From positions 1 to 42,433 of IMG/VR virus record IMGVR_UViG_3300048586_000911: a stretch of 42,433 nucleotides of DNA. The stretch is one strand, 5' to 3'. Position numbers and translations under genes: made by a program. Under the pieces are notes generated by a model, which saw only the letters and a list, made by a program, of their open reading frames with translations, ran no database searches and was not told the origin of the DNA. The first letter of the stretch is position 1; the number at the start of each line of letters is the position of its first letter. The DNA comes from a virus. Positions 4,990-42,433 of this stretch are shown here, piece by piece.

Positions 4990-6168
4990 TCATCCTTCGA
5001 GCTTCGTGCGCAGCTCGCGGTACAGCACCGAAAGCTCCTTGGCCTGGTCGAGCGCCGCGACGAGTTCGATGCCGGTCGCGGCTTCGTCGAGGGCGTCGAC
5101 GGTCGGCGCACGCTCGAGCGCCTCGCGGACCTCGGCGTAGGACTTGTGCGCGGGGACGTCGGCCGCCTTCGCGGCGCGCGCTGGCGCCTTGCTTGTGGCC
5201 GCTGGCTCCGGTTCGCCGCGCTCGTCGACGTGGATCGTCTGCGCGCCGACCAGGTCCTCGAGCGTCCCGGATGGGTTGTGCTCGATCGCCGGCGGCTCGA
5301 CGCCGTCGCCGACCACGGTGCGCACGAGATCCGGGTCGGCCATCGCCCGCATGTCGACGCCGCGGCTGTCGGCGCGCGAGTCCAGTTCGGCCGCCGCGAG
5401 GAGCGCATCGCCGCTTGCGATGGGCAGTTGCTTGGCGTGCTTCTTGATCACCGATTTCGAGGCCATGTCGTCTTCCCACATGACCCACGGCGTTTCGGCG
5501 AGCTTCTGCTCGGCCTTCGAGCGATCGCGGTCGCTCTTGGCCTCTTCGACGTTTCGCACGAGAGCGCGGAAGGTCTCGCTGCGCGAGCGGATCTTCTCGA
5601 TCTCCGAGAGCGGCAGCACGCACGCCGTTTCGCCGCCGTCGGCGAGCCGGGCGTAGGAGAACGCGCCGATCAGCGGCCCTCGGTCGCGCAGCGTCTTCGA
5701 GTAGCGCAGGAAGGCGTCGCTGCCTTCCATGTGCTCGAACAGGTCGCCGTCATGGATCGCCTCGGCGACGATCGACTTGATGTGCGGCGATCGGTAGGCG
5801 AGCGTGATAAAGCCGCGCGCGCCGACCTGGAACTGGCATTCGTAGGTGTCGACCCACTCGTCGCCGATCTTCACGCGCTTCTTGTACGGGATCAGGAACG
5901 CCTGCTGCTGGATCGTGTTCGGTTCGAGCCCCAGCGCGCTCGAGGTCATCATCGCCCCGAGCACCGTCTGCGGATCGCAGCGCGTCAGCAGCGGCGTCTT
6001 CTTCACCGCGTTCACGCACAGGCGCAGCATGCGGTCGGCGCTGAGATAGCGGCCGGCGACCGCCGCGATCCCGTCGCGCACGCGCTTGTCCTCGAGGTAG
6101 TCGAAGATCGTCTTCGGCCGGGGCGCGGCCTCGCGCTGCGTGACCGCCTTCAATGCGGCATTGCTCAT
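4990..6168 (-). CDS. recT: RecT-family single-strand annealing protein with long C-terminal tail
   Basis: RecT proteins coat single-stranded DNA and anneal complementary strands in phage recombination. The first ~260 residues match the family: MLRLCVNAVKKTPLL, then ALGLEPNTIQQQAFLIPY, CQFQVGARGFITLAYRS and the WEDDMASKSVIKKHAKQLP block. Residues ~285-392 form an Ala/Glu-rich low-complexity tail that most RecT proteins lack; it may tether partners. The start at 6168 has GAGGAG upstream. The exonuclease gene ends 13 bases before it, giving the usual exonuclease-annealase pair. PL controls both. Confidence 0.95.
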   Translation of the reverse strand: MSNAALKAVTQREAAPRPKTIFDYLEDKRVRDGIAAVAGRYLSADRMLRLCVNAVKKTPLLTRCDPQTVLGAMMTSSALGLEPNTIQQQAFLIPYKKRVKIGDEWVDTYECQFQVGARGFITLAYRSPHIKSIVAEAIHDGDLFEHMEGSDAFLRYSKTLRDRGPLIGAFSYARLADGGETACVLPLSEIEKIRSRSETFRALVRNVEEAKSDRDRSKAEQKLAETPWVMWEDDMASKSVIKKHAKQLPIASGDALLAAAELDSRADSRGVDMRAMADPDLVRTVVGDGVEPPAIEHNPSGTLEDLVGAQTIHVDERGEPEPAATSKAPARAAKAADVPAHKSYAEVREALERAPTVDALDEAATGIELVAALDQAKELSVLYRELRTKLEG

Positions 6169-37528: not shown

Positions 37529-38812
37529 ATGAGCGTTCTATTCGACGCGTCCGGCAAGTACATCAGCGTCGATCTGGGCGATCCGCCGGTCGACTCAGAT
37601 TTCAAGCTCCTCGCGTGTTGGGTGAAGCTGCCCGCCGGCACGGCGCTGGGCGGACACAACGTCATCATGCATCTCTACAATGCCGATGACGCGATGCTCG
37701 AGCTGCGCGCGAGCTCGACGCCTACGCTGACGGTGGCCGCGAAGTACGGCACGCAAAGCCCGACGGCTACCAAGACGGGCCCTGTAGCCGATACGTGGTC
37801 GCTGGTCGGCGCATTGGTCGATCCGATGTCCGCGAGCGCGAGCGCGAAGCCCTACGTGTTCCTCGACGGCACGCTGTACGACAACGCGGCTCAGATCTCC
37901 GCGTTGACCCCGCTGGGCCGCCAGTTCATCGACCTCGTCATCGGCTGCCGGAAGACCTCCATTACCGACCGATGGCGCGGGTATATCGCCGAGGCGTCGG
38001 TCTGGCGCCCGTCGAGCAAGGCGAACGCGCAGGCGATCATGACGCAGTTGCTGACCCGGCCGGCGAGCTCGGTCGATGTCGGCACGCCGCTGTGGTATCG
38101 GCCGCTGCGCGCCGATGCGTCGGGTGGAATCGGCGGCGGCGCGCCGCTGGTGGCCGGCTCGCCCACGTTCTATCCGCTCGATCATCCGGCGCTGTCGAGC
38201 GGTTCCGCGAACATCGTTCTGTCGCCCGAGCCGGCGAGCGTCGTCACCGGCGGCACGCTGCAGATGACGATCACCCGCAGCGTCGCGGCCCCCGCAGGAG
38301 CGGGTATCACCTACAACCTCGAGAGCGACAACGAGGGCGTCGCCACGGTGCCGGCGAGCGTGGTCATGAGCGAGGGGCAGACGACCAAGCAATTTACACT
38401 CACGGCCGTCTCGCCGGGCTCCGCAACGATCAACGCGACGAACGCGGCCGACTCGAACGAGACCGACGACGTCTCCGTGTCGGTCACGACGGGACGCAGG
38501 CTTCGGCTGCTCGCGCATATCGATGCGCTGGGCGCGACGAACGTGCGCGGCGCTGTGTTCGAGGCGCCCACGGGCGGTGCGCTCGTCGGCTCGTTGATCG
38601 GCGAGTTCACTGGCGCCGCGTTCAAGGCCTCGCCCGAAAGCGGACAGGCACCGCTCGAGGTCGCGGTCGACGCGTTCGGTGGCGCGGACCTGACGTCGGT
38701 GGACACGCCGGTGTGCGTGTGGGAGGCGACGTCGGCCGCCGGCAGCGCGCTGGGTAACGCCGTGCCGATCGGCTCGGTCGGTCCGCACGAGTGCACGGTG
38801 ATCGAGGACTGA
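37529..38812 (+). CDS. LamG-like lectin plus Ig-like domain virion protein (427 aa)
   Basis: The N-terminal ~200 residues resemble a concanavalin/LamG sandwich (FKLLACWVKLPAGTALGG, PYVFLDGTLYDNAAQI, WRGYIAEASVWRPSSKANAQ). A BIG2-type Ig domain follows at about 225-320 (IVLSPEPASVVTGGTLQMTI, VMSEGQTTKQFTLTAVSPGS). The last 100 residues are beta-rich. Such proteins bind sugars on the cell surface. A good GTGAGG site precedes the ATG. It is placed directly behind the propeller protein. Confidence 0.75.
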   Translation: MSVLFDASGKYISVDLGDPPVDSDFKLLACWVKLPAGTALGGHNVIMHLYNADDAMLELRASSTPTLTVAAKYGTQSPTATKTGPVADTWSLVGALVDPMSASASAKPYVFLDGTLYDNAAQISALTPLGRQFIDLVIGCRKTSITDRWRGYIAEASVWRPSSKANAQAIMTQLLTRPASSVDVGTPLWYRPLRADASGGIGGGAPLVAGSPTFYPLDHPALSSGSANIVLSPEPASVVTGGTLQMTITRSVAAPAGAGITYNLESDNEGVATVPASVVMSEGQTTKQFTLTAVSPGSATINATNAADSNETDDVSVSVTTGRRLRLLAHIDALGATNVRGAVFEAPTGGALVGSLIGEFTGAAFKASPESGQAPLEVAVDAFGGADLTSVDTPVCVWEATSAAGSALGNAVPIGSVGPHECTVIED

Positions 38813-38813
38813 G

Positions 38814-40277
38814 ATGGCGCAGGCCGCAGCACTCCTCAGTCGAGCCAGCGCGCAGAACGTCGCTGCCATCGAACACGCGGCAAGCGCCGTCGCACCGGTG
38901 ATCACGACGGTTGCGCTGCCGCCCGGACGCGTCGGCGTGCCCTACAGCCAGACGATTCAGGCGACCGGCTCGCCCGCGCCGACCGCATCGCTCGCCAGCG
39001 GCACGCTGCCGCCGGGCCTGGCGCTTACCGCCGCGACCCGACGCATCGCCGGCACGCCGACGGCGCCGGTGAAGGCTGCCTTCGAAGTGCAGGTCACGAA
39101 CGCCGCCGGCAGCGACACGAAGGCGCTCTCCATCATCGTGCCGAACGAGAGCATCGGAGCCGCTATCGTGCTGCCGATGCCGACGACGCTCACGCTCGCG
39201 CCTGCCGCGGCCGACGTGCTGCCAGGCGATACCGTCGACTTGCTGTTGACGATCGAGGATCAGAGCGAGGCCGCGATCGCGAACCTCGTCGGGGCCGTGG
39301 TCGTCGAGAACGCGCACGCCACCGCTGCGCAACTCGCGCCAACGGACACGATCGGACAGGCGACCGTGCGCGTCACCGGCGTCTCGGCCGGCTCGTGCGG
39401 CGTGTACGTCGAGGTCGATGGCGTGCGCGGCAATTCGACTGCGGTGACGGTGCTCGATGCAGTCGCGCCGACGATCACGACGACGAGCCTGCCGGACGCC
39501 ATCATCGGGCAGCCGTATTCGGTGCAGCTACAGGCGTCGGGATCGCCCACGGTCGCCTGGTCGATCGACTCGGGATCCCTGCCCGCTGGGCTTGCGCTCT
39601 CGTCGAATGGCGCGCTCTCCGGGACGGCCACCGGCAGCCAGACAGCCGTATTCGTTGTCCGGGCCGCGAACGCCTATGGCGCAGATACGCAGGCGCTCAC
39701 GCTCGTCGCGCGCGTTGCGATCTCCATTACCCAGGTGACGGTGACGCCCGCGACCGCGACGATCGCGCCAGGCGCGCAGACGCAGCTGCAGGCCGCCGTG
39801 GTCGGCGTCGGTGCATTCGACCCGACGGTGACCTGGTCGGTGCGGTCCGGGGGCGGTGCGGTTTCGCCAACCGGGCTGTATACGGCGCCGCCCGCGCCGA
39901 CGACGGCCGTCGTGCGCGCAACCTCGGTGCAGGACGCGACGAAGTTCGACGAGGCCACGATCACCGTGCAAGCGCCGGCACAAGCCGACTCCATTCGCGC
40001 GGCGGGCATTCGCTGCGGGCTGTACCAGGGCTCCACGCTGCTGATGCCGGTTCGCATCACGGTCACGCAGGGCTCTGCCGCAGGGCAGACGATCACCGCA
40101 TCCTCGAGCGACCCCACGAAGGTGGCGGTTTCGCCATCAGCCTCGATCACCGACGACCAGGGCAAGACGGTGTTCACGCTCTCGTTCCTCGCCGGCGGGC
40201 AGTCGACGATCACCTTCTCGTCGGGTCCGATGACCACCGAGATGCTCGCGATAACCCGCGTAGGCGGGGGACAGTGA
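38814..40277 (+). CDS. Ig-repeat virion protein (487 aa)
   Basis: Composed of repeated Ig-like units. Two putative-Ig repeats share LPxxxxGxPYSxxxxAxGSP followed by GxLPxGLAL (residues ~40-80 and ~225-265). BIG2-like units such as TVTPATATIAPGAQTQLQAA lie between and after them. No catalytic domain. Ig-like domains on phage surfaces mediate weak binding to carbohydrate and may be structural spacers. It is the last structural gene before lysis. Confidence 0.78.
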   Translation: MAQAAALLSRASAQNVAAIEHAASAVAPVITTVALPPGRVGVPYSQTIQATGSPAPTASLASGTLPPGLALTAATRRIAGTPTAPVKAAFEVQVTNAAGSDTKALSIIVPNESIGAAIVLPMPTTLTLAPAAADVLPGDTVDLLLTIEDQSEAAIANLVGAVVVENAHATAAQLAPTDTIGQATVRVTGVSAGSCGVYVEVDGVRGNSTAVTVLDAVAPTITTTSLPDAIIGQPYSVQLQASGSPTVAWSIDSGSLPAGLALSSNGALSGTATGSQTAVFVVRAANAYGADTQALTLVARVAISITQVTVTPATATIAPGAQTQLQAAVVGVGAFDPTVTWSVRSGGGAVSPTGLYTAPPAPTTAVVRATSVQDATKFDEATITVQAPAQADSIRAAGIRCGLYQGSTLLMPVRITVTQGSAAGQTITASSSDPTKVAVSPSASITDDQGKTVFTLSFLAGGQSTITFSSGPMTTEMLAITRVGGGQ

Positions 40278-40278
40278 G

Positions 40279-40506
40279 ATGGATCCGATCGACCAGCGAG
40301 AGTTCGGCCGCCTGGAGGCGCAAGTCGAGGCACAGGGCCGCGAAATCGGCGAGCTGAAGGAAACGCTCCGGGGTATGGCGGTCAAGCTCGACGAGCTGCT
40401 CGCCCTAGCGAACAAGGGGCGCGGCGGCTTCTGGGCTGGCATGACGTTCGTTTCGATGACGGGTACCGCCGTCGGCTGGGTATTGCACAACGTATTCGGT
40501 CGATGA
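40279..40506 (+). CDS. Small coiled-coil membrane protein, holin-like (75 aa)
   Basis: A 75-residue protein with a charged coiled-coil (EFGRLEAQVEAQGREIGELK) and one C-terminal membrane helix (FWAGMTFVSMTGTAVGWVLH), directly before the endolysin, which it overlaps as ATGA. Such proteins are usually annotated as phage holins or lysis regulators. It could be the holin or an antiholin, since a second membrane lysis domain is encoded in the next gene. Confidence 0.65.
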   Translation: MDPIDQREFGRLEAQVEAQGREIGELKETLRGMAVKLDELLALANKGRGGFWAGMTFVSMTGTAVGWVLHNVFGR

Positions 40507-41615
40507 CGACGATCGCCGAAGCCTTGCAGTCGCCCAACGTTCACGCGTTCCTGCGCGCGATCAGGCTGGGCGAGGGCACGCTCGACGCCGACGGGTACCG
40601 GCGCATCGTCGGCGGCGAGTTGTTCACGTCGTTCGCCGACCACCCTCGCAAGCGCGTTTGGATCGAGCGGTACCAGGTCTGGTCGACGGCCGCCGGCGCG
40701 TACCAGTTCCTCGCCGGCACCTGGGACGAGATGCGAGCGAAGTACGCGCTGCGCGACTTCAGCCCGGGCGAGCAGGACAAGGCGGCGATCGGCCTGCTGA
40801 TCCGTCGCAAGGCGCTCGACGACATCATCGCCGGGCGCATCGAGGACGCGATCGCGAAGTGCCGGCTCGAGTGGGCATCGCTGCCCGGATCGCTCTACGG
40901 GCAGCGCACCGAGAGCATGCAGCGCGTGCTCGATACCTATATCGCCTCGGGCGGATCGTTCGCGCCCGCGGCGCCGGCGCCCGCCGAGGCCGTCACCGAG
41001 CTGGTCGAAGAGGCACCACCGACCCCGCAGCAGATCGCCGCATCCCCCAACTCCGTGTCCGTGGAGGCAGAACCGATGGACCCGTTCACCGCTACCGCCA
41101 TTGCCGCCCTCGTGCGCGAGATCCCCGGCCTGATTCGCTCGTTCGGCAGCGACGGTCGCGTGACCGAGCGCAACGCCAAGGCGGCCGAGATCCTCATCAA
41201 CAGCGTCCAGGCGGCGACCGGCACGCAGAACGCGCAGGCCGCCGTCGAGGCGGTTCGCGCCTCGCCCGAGGTTCGCCAGCAGGTGACGCAGCGCCTCGAG
41301 GCCGACGGGTGGTTCGAGATCACCGAAGCGGGCGGCGGCGGGATCGAAGGCGCACGCGCCTACAGCACGGCAATGAAGGGCGAGGACGTACGCCATATCC
41401 CCGCCTTCTGGATCACGCTCGCGCTGCTGCCGCTGCTCTACGGGACGGTCTGGATCGTGCTCACCGGGTCGAGCGATGCGTTCTCCGGCGAGCTGCGCGC
41501 GGCGATCGCCTCGAGCGTGGTGACGGGGATCCTTGGCGGCGTGATCGGCTACTGGCTCGGCTTGAAATTTTCGGCGCCGCGCACGCAGGTGCTCGCTACG
41601 GGGCAGCAGCCATGA
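40503..41615 (+). CDS. Endolysin (lambda R-like transglycosylase) fused to a holin-like membrane domain
   Basis: Residues 1-155 closely follow the lambda R lytic transglycosylase: RLGEGT with the catalytic glutamate (E24), YRRIVGGELFTSFADHPRK, STAAGAYQFLAGTWDEM, FSPGEQD and EWASLPGSLYGQ. After a Pro/Ala linker, residues 192-370 match GTA-holin-type phage proteins. They have ALVREIPGLIRSFGSDGR, ERNAKAAEILINSV, a WFEITEAGGGGIEGAR loop and two membrane helices (FWITLALLPLLYGTVWIVL; SSVVTGILGGVIGYWLGL). A soluble cell-wall enzyme fused to its own membrane partner is unusual. A nested start could make the second half alone. Confidence 0.88.
   Translation: MTTIAEALQSPNVHAFLRAIRLGEGTLDADGYRRIVGGELFTSFADHPRKRVWIERYQVWSTAAGAYQFLAGTWDEMRAKYALRDFSPGEQDKAAIGLLIRRKALDDIIAGRIEDAIAKCRLEWASLPGSLYGQRTESMQRVLDTYIASGGSFAPAAPAPAEAVTELVEEAPPTPQQIAASPNSVSVEAEPMDPFTATAIAALVREIPGLIRSFGSDGRVTERNAKAAEILINSVQAATGTQNAQAAVEAVRASPEVRQQVTQRLEADGWFEITEAGGGGIEGARAYSTAMKGEDVRHIPAFWITLALLPLLYGTVWIVLTGSSDAFSGELRAAIASSVVTGILGGVIGYWLGLKFSAPRTQVLATGQQP
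41076..41615 (+). CDS. Nested in-frame start giving a separate 179-aa holin-like protein
   Basis: Inside the fusion gene an ATG at 41076 (MDPFTATAIAALV) lies exactly at the beginning of the GTA-holin-like domain. It is preceded by GGAGG at 41063-41067 with an ideal 8-base spacing. The product would be a complete 179-residue protein of the length such stand-alone proteins usually have. Whether both forms are made cannot be seen from sequence. Confidence 0.55.
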   Translation: MDPFTATAIAALVREIPGLIRSFGSDGRVTERNAKAAEILINSVQAATGTQNAQAAVEAVRASPEVRQQVTQRLEADGWFEITEAGGGGIEGARAYSTAMKGEDVRHIPAFWITLALLPLLYGTVWIVLTGSSDAFSGELRAAIASSVVTGILGGVIGYWLGLKFSAPRTQVLATGQQP

Positions 41616-41836
41616 GGCTCGACGATCGTCCGGTTCTCTGGTCGGTCATCGCGGCGATTGCCGTCGTCGTCACGGTGGTGGTGCTGGCGGGGTGCGCCAC
41701 GCCGCCCGAGGCTTCCGCGCCCGCGCCGCACCCTGCCTTCCCCGACGACATGCGCCTGGTCTGCCACGAGGGCGCCTACTACCTCGGCTCGGTCAGCGCC
41801 GACCAGGTCGTGCGGCTGCCGCTGTCATGCACCTGA
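41612..41836 (+). CDS. Small lipoprotein, possible outer-membrane spanin
   Basis: A 74-residue protein with an N-terminal hydrophobic signal (VLWSVIAAIAVVVTVVVLAG) and lipobox LAGC, then a Pro/Ala-rich part (PPEASAPAPHP). A short globular-like end with one Cys in the middle and one at the C-terminus follows. It lies behind the endolysin (ATGA overlap) where Rz/Rz1 genes are expected. No inner-membrane Rz partner was found, so the o-spanin call is tentative; a lysogenic surface lipoprotein is an alternative. Confidence 0.65.
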   Translation: MRLDDRPVLWSVIAAIAVVVTVVVLAGCATPPEASAPAPHPAFPDDMRLVCHEGAYYLGSVSADQVVRLPLSCT

Positions 41837-42433
41837 TCGATGCGATTCTCGACTGGTGGGCGTGGATCGTCTCGCGCTGCGTGTGGCTCGTGCTGTAGCC
41901 AGGCCGGAGAGCAGCAGCGCCAGCGTTCCGGGCGCCGGCACCGGCACTGTCGCGGCATCGAGCACCCAGCGGCCCGTTACGGTGCACGCCGAGAAGAAGC
42001 ACTCCGATTCGCCGGCGCCCTCGGCCGAGGTGTTGAACAACTCGTAGATCCACGAGCCCGCAGTTCCGGTGCCGTCGGAGGCGCCTTCCTGCACCATCTC
42101 GAGAAACATAGAACCATCGACGCCGTCGCCGACGAAGCGAATGTCGAACGAGGCGCGGAACAGGCTGGGGTCGAGATCGGAGTACCAGCTACCGCCGTCG
42201 ATCAAGGGGCTGGTCAGTACAACCGTCGCATGCCGAACCGGCGCGCCCGAGAAATCTGGCCAGTGGTCGTCCGAATTCCATTGGACCGCGCCGGACCGCC
42301 AGGCCTGATCGCTGATGACCAACTGCCCCCATTCGTCGCGCGCTCCGGGCGAATCCGGCGTCCAGTCGTACACGACGTCGCCCCACGCCGGCGTGCACAG
42401 CGCGAGCGCCAACGCACACAGGAATGCCCGCAT
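41825..42433 (-). CDS. Secreted PEP-CTERM-type protein, host flank
   Basis: A 202-residue frame whose ATG is the last base of the window. A signal peptide is clear (MRAFLCALALALCTPAWG). The middle is beta-rich (DPSLFRASFDIRFVGDGVDG) and includes two nearby Cys. The C-terminal sorting signal appears as VPAPGTLALLLSGLA followed by basic residues. This is the PEP-CTERM type processed by exosortase, with VPEP replaced by VPAP. The final ~25 residues run past the usual end of such proteins into the phage lysis genes, so the authentic C-terminus may have been altered by the insertion. Confidence 0.75.
   Translation of the reverse strand: MRAFLCALALALCTPAWGDVVYDWTPDSPGARDEWGQLVISDQAWRSGAVQWNSDDHWPDFSGAPVRHATVVLTSPLIDGGSWYSDLDPSLFRASFDIRFVGDGVDGSMFLEMVQEGASDGTGTAGSWIYELFNTSAEGAGESECFFSACTVTGRWVLDAATVPVPAPGTLALLLSGLATARATRSARRSTPTSRESHRSGA
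41827..41898 (+). CDS. Tiny hydrophobic peptide frame (23 aa)
   Basis: An ATG within the last codons of the lipoprotein gene opens 23 codons, almost all hydrophobic or aromatic (HLIDAILDWWAWIVSRCVWL). One membrane helix would be formed. No ribosome-binding site is visible. It is the last plus-strand frame before the host flank and could be a chance frame. Confidence 0.3.
   Translation: MHLIDAILDWWAWIVSRCVWLVL
41899..41990. other. Right prophage boundary region
   Basis: The plus-strand phage frames end at 41898 and the recognisable PEP-CTERM motif begins near 41990 on the other strand, so attR should lie about here. No match to the tRNA-His 3' end or to the 1737-1813 region longer than seven bases was found. 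No terminator with a T tract is visible. Confidence 0.4.

Follow-up and report, generated by a model that had tools for sequence, protein, structure and literature searches.

A phage gene joining an endolysin to a putative holin that keeps its own nested start codon

The window analysed here, a stretch of 42,433 nucleotides, is a single metagenomic virus record containing CII-like, replication, RusA, terminase, portal, head and tail genes. One of its open reading frames runs for 370 codons through an endolysin, a linker and a membrane domain (Table 1). The list of ORFs and the translation show that this frame has no interruption, so the in-frame joint between an endolysin and a membrane protein that the original prediction placed here was confirmed. 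The stop codon of a gene for a 75-residue protein overlaps the start of the fusion (ATGA), and the gene of a putative 74-residue lipoprotein overlaps its stop. A second endolysin or holin was not recognised among the window ORFs scanned.

Table 1. Features of the lysis region, in positions of the window.
Feature	Positions	Strand	Basis
Protein of 75 aa with a coiled-coil-like N-terminus and one C-terminal membrane segment	40279–40506	+	sequence
Full-length fusion gene, 370 aa: endolysin, linker and membrane domain	40503–41615	+	open frame; fused relatives
Lambda R-like (GH104) transglycosylase domain	40515–40958	+	phrog_90, PDB 1am7, Glu24
Pro/Ala-rich linker, about 39 residues	40959–41075	+	sequence; low pLDDT in model
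Internal Shine-Dalgarno sequence GGAGG	41063–41067	+	identical in L002; all 19 loci have a match
Nested frame for a phrog_1544-like putative holin of 179 aa	41076–41615	+	phrog_1544 matches; all 19 loci keep the start codon
First (N-terminal) helix of the membrane domain, hydrophobic/amphipathic	41079–41141	+	AF2 helix 2–22; hydropathy and moment
Membrane helix 1	41406–41462	+	KD hydropathy 2.02; AF2 helix 109–130
Membrane helix 2	41502–41558	+	KD hydropathy 1.64; AF2 helix 138–175
Putative lipoprotein of 74 aa (lipobox LAGC), o-spanin-like by position	41612–41836	+	sequence; L002 homologue

The enzyme domain occupies the first 152 or so residues of the fusion and is, by itself, a complete R-like endolysin. 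It matched the phrog_90 endolysins (E 1e-43), and the lambda lysozyme structures 1am7 (E 1.8e-25) and 3d3d (E 2e-25) from the PDB matched this half of the protein. These matches over the catalytic domain bear out the earlier identification of a lambda R-like transglycosylase. Glu24, found within the motif GEGT, is invariant among eight aligned R-like fusions, and we take it to be the counterpart of lambda Glu19, the catalytic glutamate of lambda R. The linker that follows is predicted to be unstructured from its low pLDDT in the AlphaFold model of the entire fusion, which is itself of low confidence (pLDDT 61). In the closest named phages with R-like lysozymes, namely Skarpretter, ZDD2 and ctn9Y15, the holin and the lysozyme are encoded by two different genes, as is usual.

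At the end of the linker, GGAGG is followed, after a gap of eight bases, by an in-frame ATG (41076–41078) that opens the membrane domain and would give a 179-residue product, just as the original prediction described. An in-frame start with its own ribosome-binding site at a domain border (here GGAGG-8-ATG) is the feature by which internal-start (iTSS) endolysins are recognised. The Shine-Dalgarno energy is −9.3 kcal/mol at the internal start versus −1.1 kcal/mol, i.e., almost none, at the outer one. Because the outer start overlaps the upstream stop codon and has almost no Shine-Dalgarno signal, coupled and weaker synthesis of the long form is predicted for this phage; unlike the window, loci L006, L008 and L009 carry a stronger Shine-Dalgarno signal at the outer start.

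In the AlphaFold model, the C-terminal domain is all-helical (pLDDT 76) and consists, in order, of an N-terminal hydrophobic/amphipathic helix, several soluble helices with the conserved motifs ERNxKAAE and EAGGGGIxGAR, two membrane segments and a positively charged tail. Strong hydrophobic segments were found at residues 111–129 and 143–161 of the 179-residue product, and the N-terminal one is borderline, as compared with the three membrane segments of GTA_holin_3TM (PF11351). The GTA-holin label given to this domain earlier was not upheld: PF11351 had no Pfam match up to E 10 to the window domain or to eight related domains, and hhalign against seven genuine members from Burkholderiales genomes gave a probability of only 2.4%. 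Pfam and NCBIfam searches with the membrane domain yielded no match above threshold and no curated holin family, and profile searches with the C-terminal part found no cell-wall-binding family.

The best family for the membrane domain is phrog_1544, a family of no known function. Its match to the window domain alone is weak (E 0.037), and lower E values were obtained for the domain of L002 (2.1e-4), the fusion of Azohydromonas lata (1.2e-6) and the stand-alone homologue L027 (1.4e-20); hhalign of the membrane domain with phrog_1544 members gave 98% and E 1.5e-13 with a profile that contains L027. Foldseek comparison of the domain model with viral structures gave nothing at E <0.001, the best hit, ORF20 of Vibrio phage VHML (E 0.063), being uninformative, and a PDB search with the domain profile returned only chance-like matches to helical proteins. 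Among 50,697 phage records, tblastn found zero matches for the domains of the window and L002, and only weak N-terminal matches, in Vibrio phages, for that of L004. In two proteins of one genome (G058), L049/L054 and L051/L058, a phrog_1544 match lies more N-terminally and a PF11351 match more C-terminally. This suggests that the two holin-like families may share or exchange halves, the contact between them being only indirect.

Searches of viral contigs and Burkholderiales genomes revealed 18 further distinct loci, i.e., 19 together with the window, in which the membrane domain is preceded by an open extension in the same frame. Most of the 19 are metagenomic contigs. Contig ends truncate L010 and also account for the missing membrane helices of L013. 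The enzyme could be read in 17 relatives and the window, and these 18 enzymes belong to three unrelated families. Twelve are R-like (by alignment, and by inspection for L025 and L032–L034), four are GH24 (Pfam E 7e-44 or better) and two are GH19, of which L022 was recognised by Pfam (4e-12) and L024, with no Pfam match of its own, was assigned by its 50% identity to L022. A single metagenomic record could by itself suggest a frameshift or an assembly artefact of two genes; as independent assemblies, among them bacterial genomes like that of Azohydromonas lata NBRC 102462, show the same fusion at 18 further loci, this explanation was ruled out and its probability is negligible.

In none of the 18 fusion relatives is the gene split. 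The fusion might be a precursor in which a protease of the host or phage cuts the linker to give a soluble endolysin, the internal start adding extra holin. An enzyme domain complete by itself would suit such processing, as would an unstructured linker that varies in length and sequence among the relatives; but inspection of their linkers showed no shared cleavage motif, and splitting the gene would be the simpler route to the same end. In our opinion, a precursor is rather unlikely.

The membrane domain seems to have been combined with its enzymes repeatedly. The DNA of loci L024 (GH19) and L025 (R-like) is about 90% identical downstream from the Shine-Dalgarno site, starting with GGAGGCYCCCRTG, and shows no identity above background upstream of it. 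Since homology begins at this very site, the exchangeable unit appears to consist of the ribosome-binding site and the holin ORF. On the domain tree, the enzyme types are interleaved (7 changes for five labels versus a minimum of 4), which indicates joining or swapping on more than one occasion.

Conservation of the internal GGAGG/ATG, on which the original prediction could have failed, was checked in all these loci, and the start and a Shine-Dalgarno match are kept in 19 of 19, across the three enzyme types. About five residues at most separate the start codon (18 ATG, 1 GTG) from the domain border; in L010, L012, L020 and L034, this codon stands 3–5 residues ahead of the first conserved Pro/Phe. 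A match of 4–7 bases to the anti-Shine-Dalgarno complement, at a workable spacing, accompanies each of them. L025 is the only relative with a GTG nested start (its positions 1498–1500), and AGGAGG is located five bases ahead of it. Matches of at least 5 bases (5–7) were found at the junction in 14 of 17 non-redundant loci versus 6 of the 63 other in-frame ATGs that these ORFs contain (Fisher p 1.3e-8). When the junction was ranked against every in-frame position, the combined p was 2e-10, and dinucleotide shuffles of the linker gave 9e-15, all these p-values treating as independent loci that are not fully so. The existence of the fusion and of its conserved nested start is near certain.

It might be supposed that the nested start is a fossil of a former holin gene and that only the full-length fusion is made or relevant. 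Synonymous recoding with the peptide fixed fits this idea, as the amino-acid sequence explains the strength of the Shine-Dalgarno match, which was no stronger than expected (combined p 0.74), because each peptide supplies a suitably flanked Glu codon and GAG is the favoured Glu codon. Retention of the conserved GAG might, in theory, serve the protein. However, the start codon has survived in every locus at membrane-domain identities of only about 23–54% between the relatives and the window, and the change from ATG to GTG in one locus preserves start function. In addition, synonymous recodings are more structured than the actual mRNA from −21 to +24 of the internal start (Fisher p 1.1e-5), the mean openness z being +0.95 at the junction versus −0.29 at 295 control sites (p 6e-5). 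Such predicted openness is a codon-level signature of initiation, beyond what the amino acids explain, and indicates selection that a fossil would hardly experience. We consider the fossil explanation improbable and conclude from these sequence features that the internal start is very probably used.

Relatives with the two halves as separate genes, which had been suggested as a check, were sought and found. Unfused homologues of the membrane domain begin at the equivalent Met (MDPF/MDPI or MDW). A GH108 endolysin gene is located directly upstream of the stand-alone homologue in L026, L035, L037 and L059, overlapping the holin gene by 4 bases in L026 and joined to it through TGATG in L035; a GH24 lysozyme gene takes this place in L052 and L053 (TGATG), and an M15 peptidase gene in L028. 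As most stand-alone homologues directly follow endolysin genes, the endolysin–holin gene order is likely ancestral, and the fusions would have kept the holin's own start. The recurrent position beside endolysins points to a holin function for phrog_1544. Of the earlier claims, the holin role of the membrane half thus stands in part: it is supported by membrane topology and by the endolysin synteny of the stand-alone homologues, but not by a match to a curated holin family. On this basis, the short product probably functions as a holin.

The small gene preceding the fusion offers another candidate for this role. Its 75-residue product, with no family match above the cut-off in profile searches, has one membrane helix and may be a second holin or a regulator. 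If it were the true holin, the membrane domain could be just an anchor or an antiholin-like partner, and the nested start would provide an accessory subunit. The lack of a Pfam holin match for the domain agrees with this, and so does the presence of similar coiled-coil-like one-helix membrane proteins ahead of the fusion not only in the window, but also in L004, L013, L019 and L021. At the same time, such a small upstream ORF is not recognisable at every fusion locus, and stand-alone homologues of the domain directly follow endolysin genes. This explanation seems to us possible, though unlikely.

Summarizing these data, we prefer to regard the fusion as a two-product lysis gene whose tethered endolysin and free holin co-assemble, with a probability of roughly 0.7. 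We infer holin activity, the use of both starts, co-assembly and the exit route of the enzyme as follows. Initiation at 40503, through coupling with the upstream gene that overlaps this start, would lead to the endolysin–linker–membrane protein, in which a flexible linker joins the enzyme to the cytoplasmic face of a membrane protein with two helices. Initiation at the internal GGAGG/ATG would give the membrane protein alone, i.e., the holin. The long and short products would probably co-assemble, because the membrane part is common to both. When the holin lattice opens, the enzyme would already be at the lesion and could reach the peptidoglycan via the linker with no diffusion out. For the tethered enzyme acting at the lesion without cleavage, we see about even odds. 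A tethered endolysin may also alter the timing of lysis, as the original prediction proposed.

The same two products might also work as a lysis timer. The long one would be an antiholin and a tethered enzyme at once, its folded N-terminal enzyme retaining the first, hydrophobic segment of the holin at the cytoplasmic face, and the internal start would supply the active holin. We regard this mechanism as a minority possibility. If it operates, the time of lysis would be set by the relative use of the two starts within the gene, and the logic of dual-start holins would be realised with the endolysin itself as an antiholin tag, reusable with any endolysin class.

In canonical lysis, the enzyme and the hole-former are separate proteins, and the holin gates the release of the enzyme. 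In lambda, the nested in-frame starts of S105/S107, two codons apart, provide two holin forms that differ in their N-termini. The gene of the window is similar in having two nested in-frame starts in one holin gene, but 191 codons separate them, and the enzyme is part of the long form. The tandem endolysin–holin genes of L026, L035, L052 and L053 resemble it in gene order, in the equivalent Met start and in encoding a homologous phrog_1544-type protein; the tandem loci differ in having separate genes, with a stop/start overlap in several, and GH108, GH24 or M15 enzymes, while here one gene is fused.

The dual-start motif of holin genes is also cited in PMC9636201. Two-polypeptide internal-start endolysins of Type II (CTP1L, LysIME-EF1) are known from phages of Gram-positive bacteria (PMC9430671, PMC12203907). 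As in these, one gene of the window contains an in-frame internal ribosome-binding site and start between the catalytic and C-terminal domains, and two products are expected; the short product of Type II is, however, a cell-wall-binding domain, in contrast to the membrane protein, probably a holin, of the present gene. Phages of Gram-negative hosts were excluded from a survey, since internal starts were thought unlikely there (PMC9430671). In mycobacteriophage Ms6, a second lysis protein is likewise encoded in frame inside the endolysin gene lysA (PMC3111421), but the embedded lysin is another enzyme and not a membrane protein. A natural fusion from Clostridium sporogenes (TpeE family, WP_163247266.1) also unites endolysin and holin on one polypeptide, and a membrane-anchored lytic enzyme was proposed for it. 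The relevant passages of that source describe a reverse order with the holin first, a Gram-positive host and another holin family, and mention no internal start (PMC9527704). In the open-licence literature, no report was found of the endolysin–holin order, of a holin start nested in this way or of the conservation of such a start across types of enzyme; this absence is weak evidence.

The significance of the gene lies in the union of an enzyme and a putative hole-former on one polypeptide with the nested start retained, for three unrelated enzymes, in phages and Burkholderiales prophages. A two-product gene of this kind would add phages of Gram-negative hosts to those with internal-start endolysins and may be a natural system for testing if lysis requires the endolysin to leave the membrane.

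Several minor observations concern the surroundings of the fusion. The putative lipoprotein after it, without a family match in profile searches, has a homologue at the same place in L002, where the viral contig ends with the stop codon of the lipoprotein gene (5280–5286), perhaps a genome terminus. On the minus strand of the window, at 41825–42433, there is an ORF resembling a secreted protein, the end of which, VPVPAPGTLALLLSGLATAR, is like a degenerate PEP-CTERM (Pfam PEP-CTERM E 0.03, below the cut-off); this is an odd cargo for the end of a phage record and is perhaps a bacterial flank. Just before the lysis genes, positions 37529–40277 encode two adjacent proteins with bacterial Ig-like folds, one of them with a lectin-like domain.
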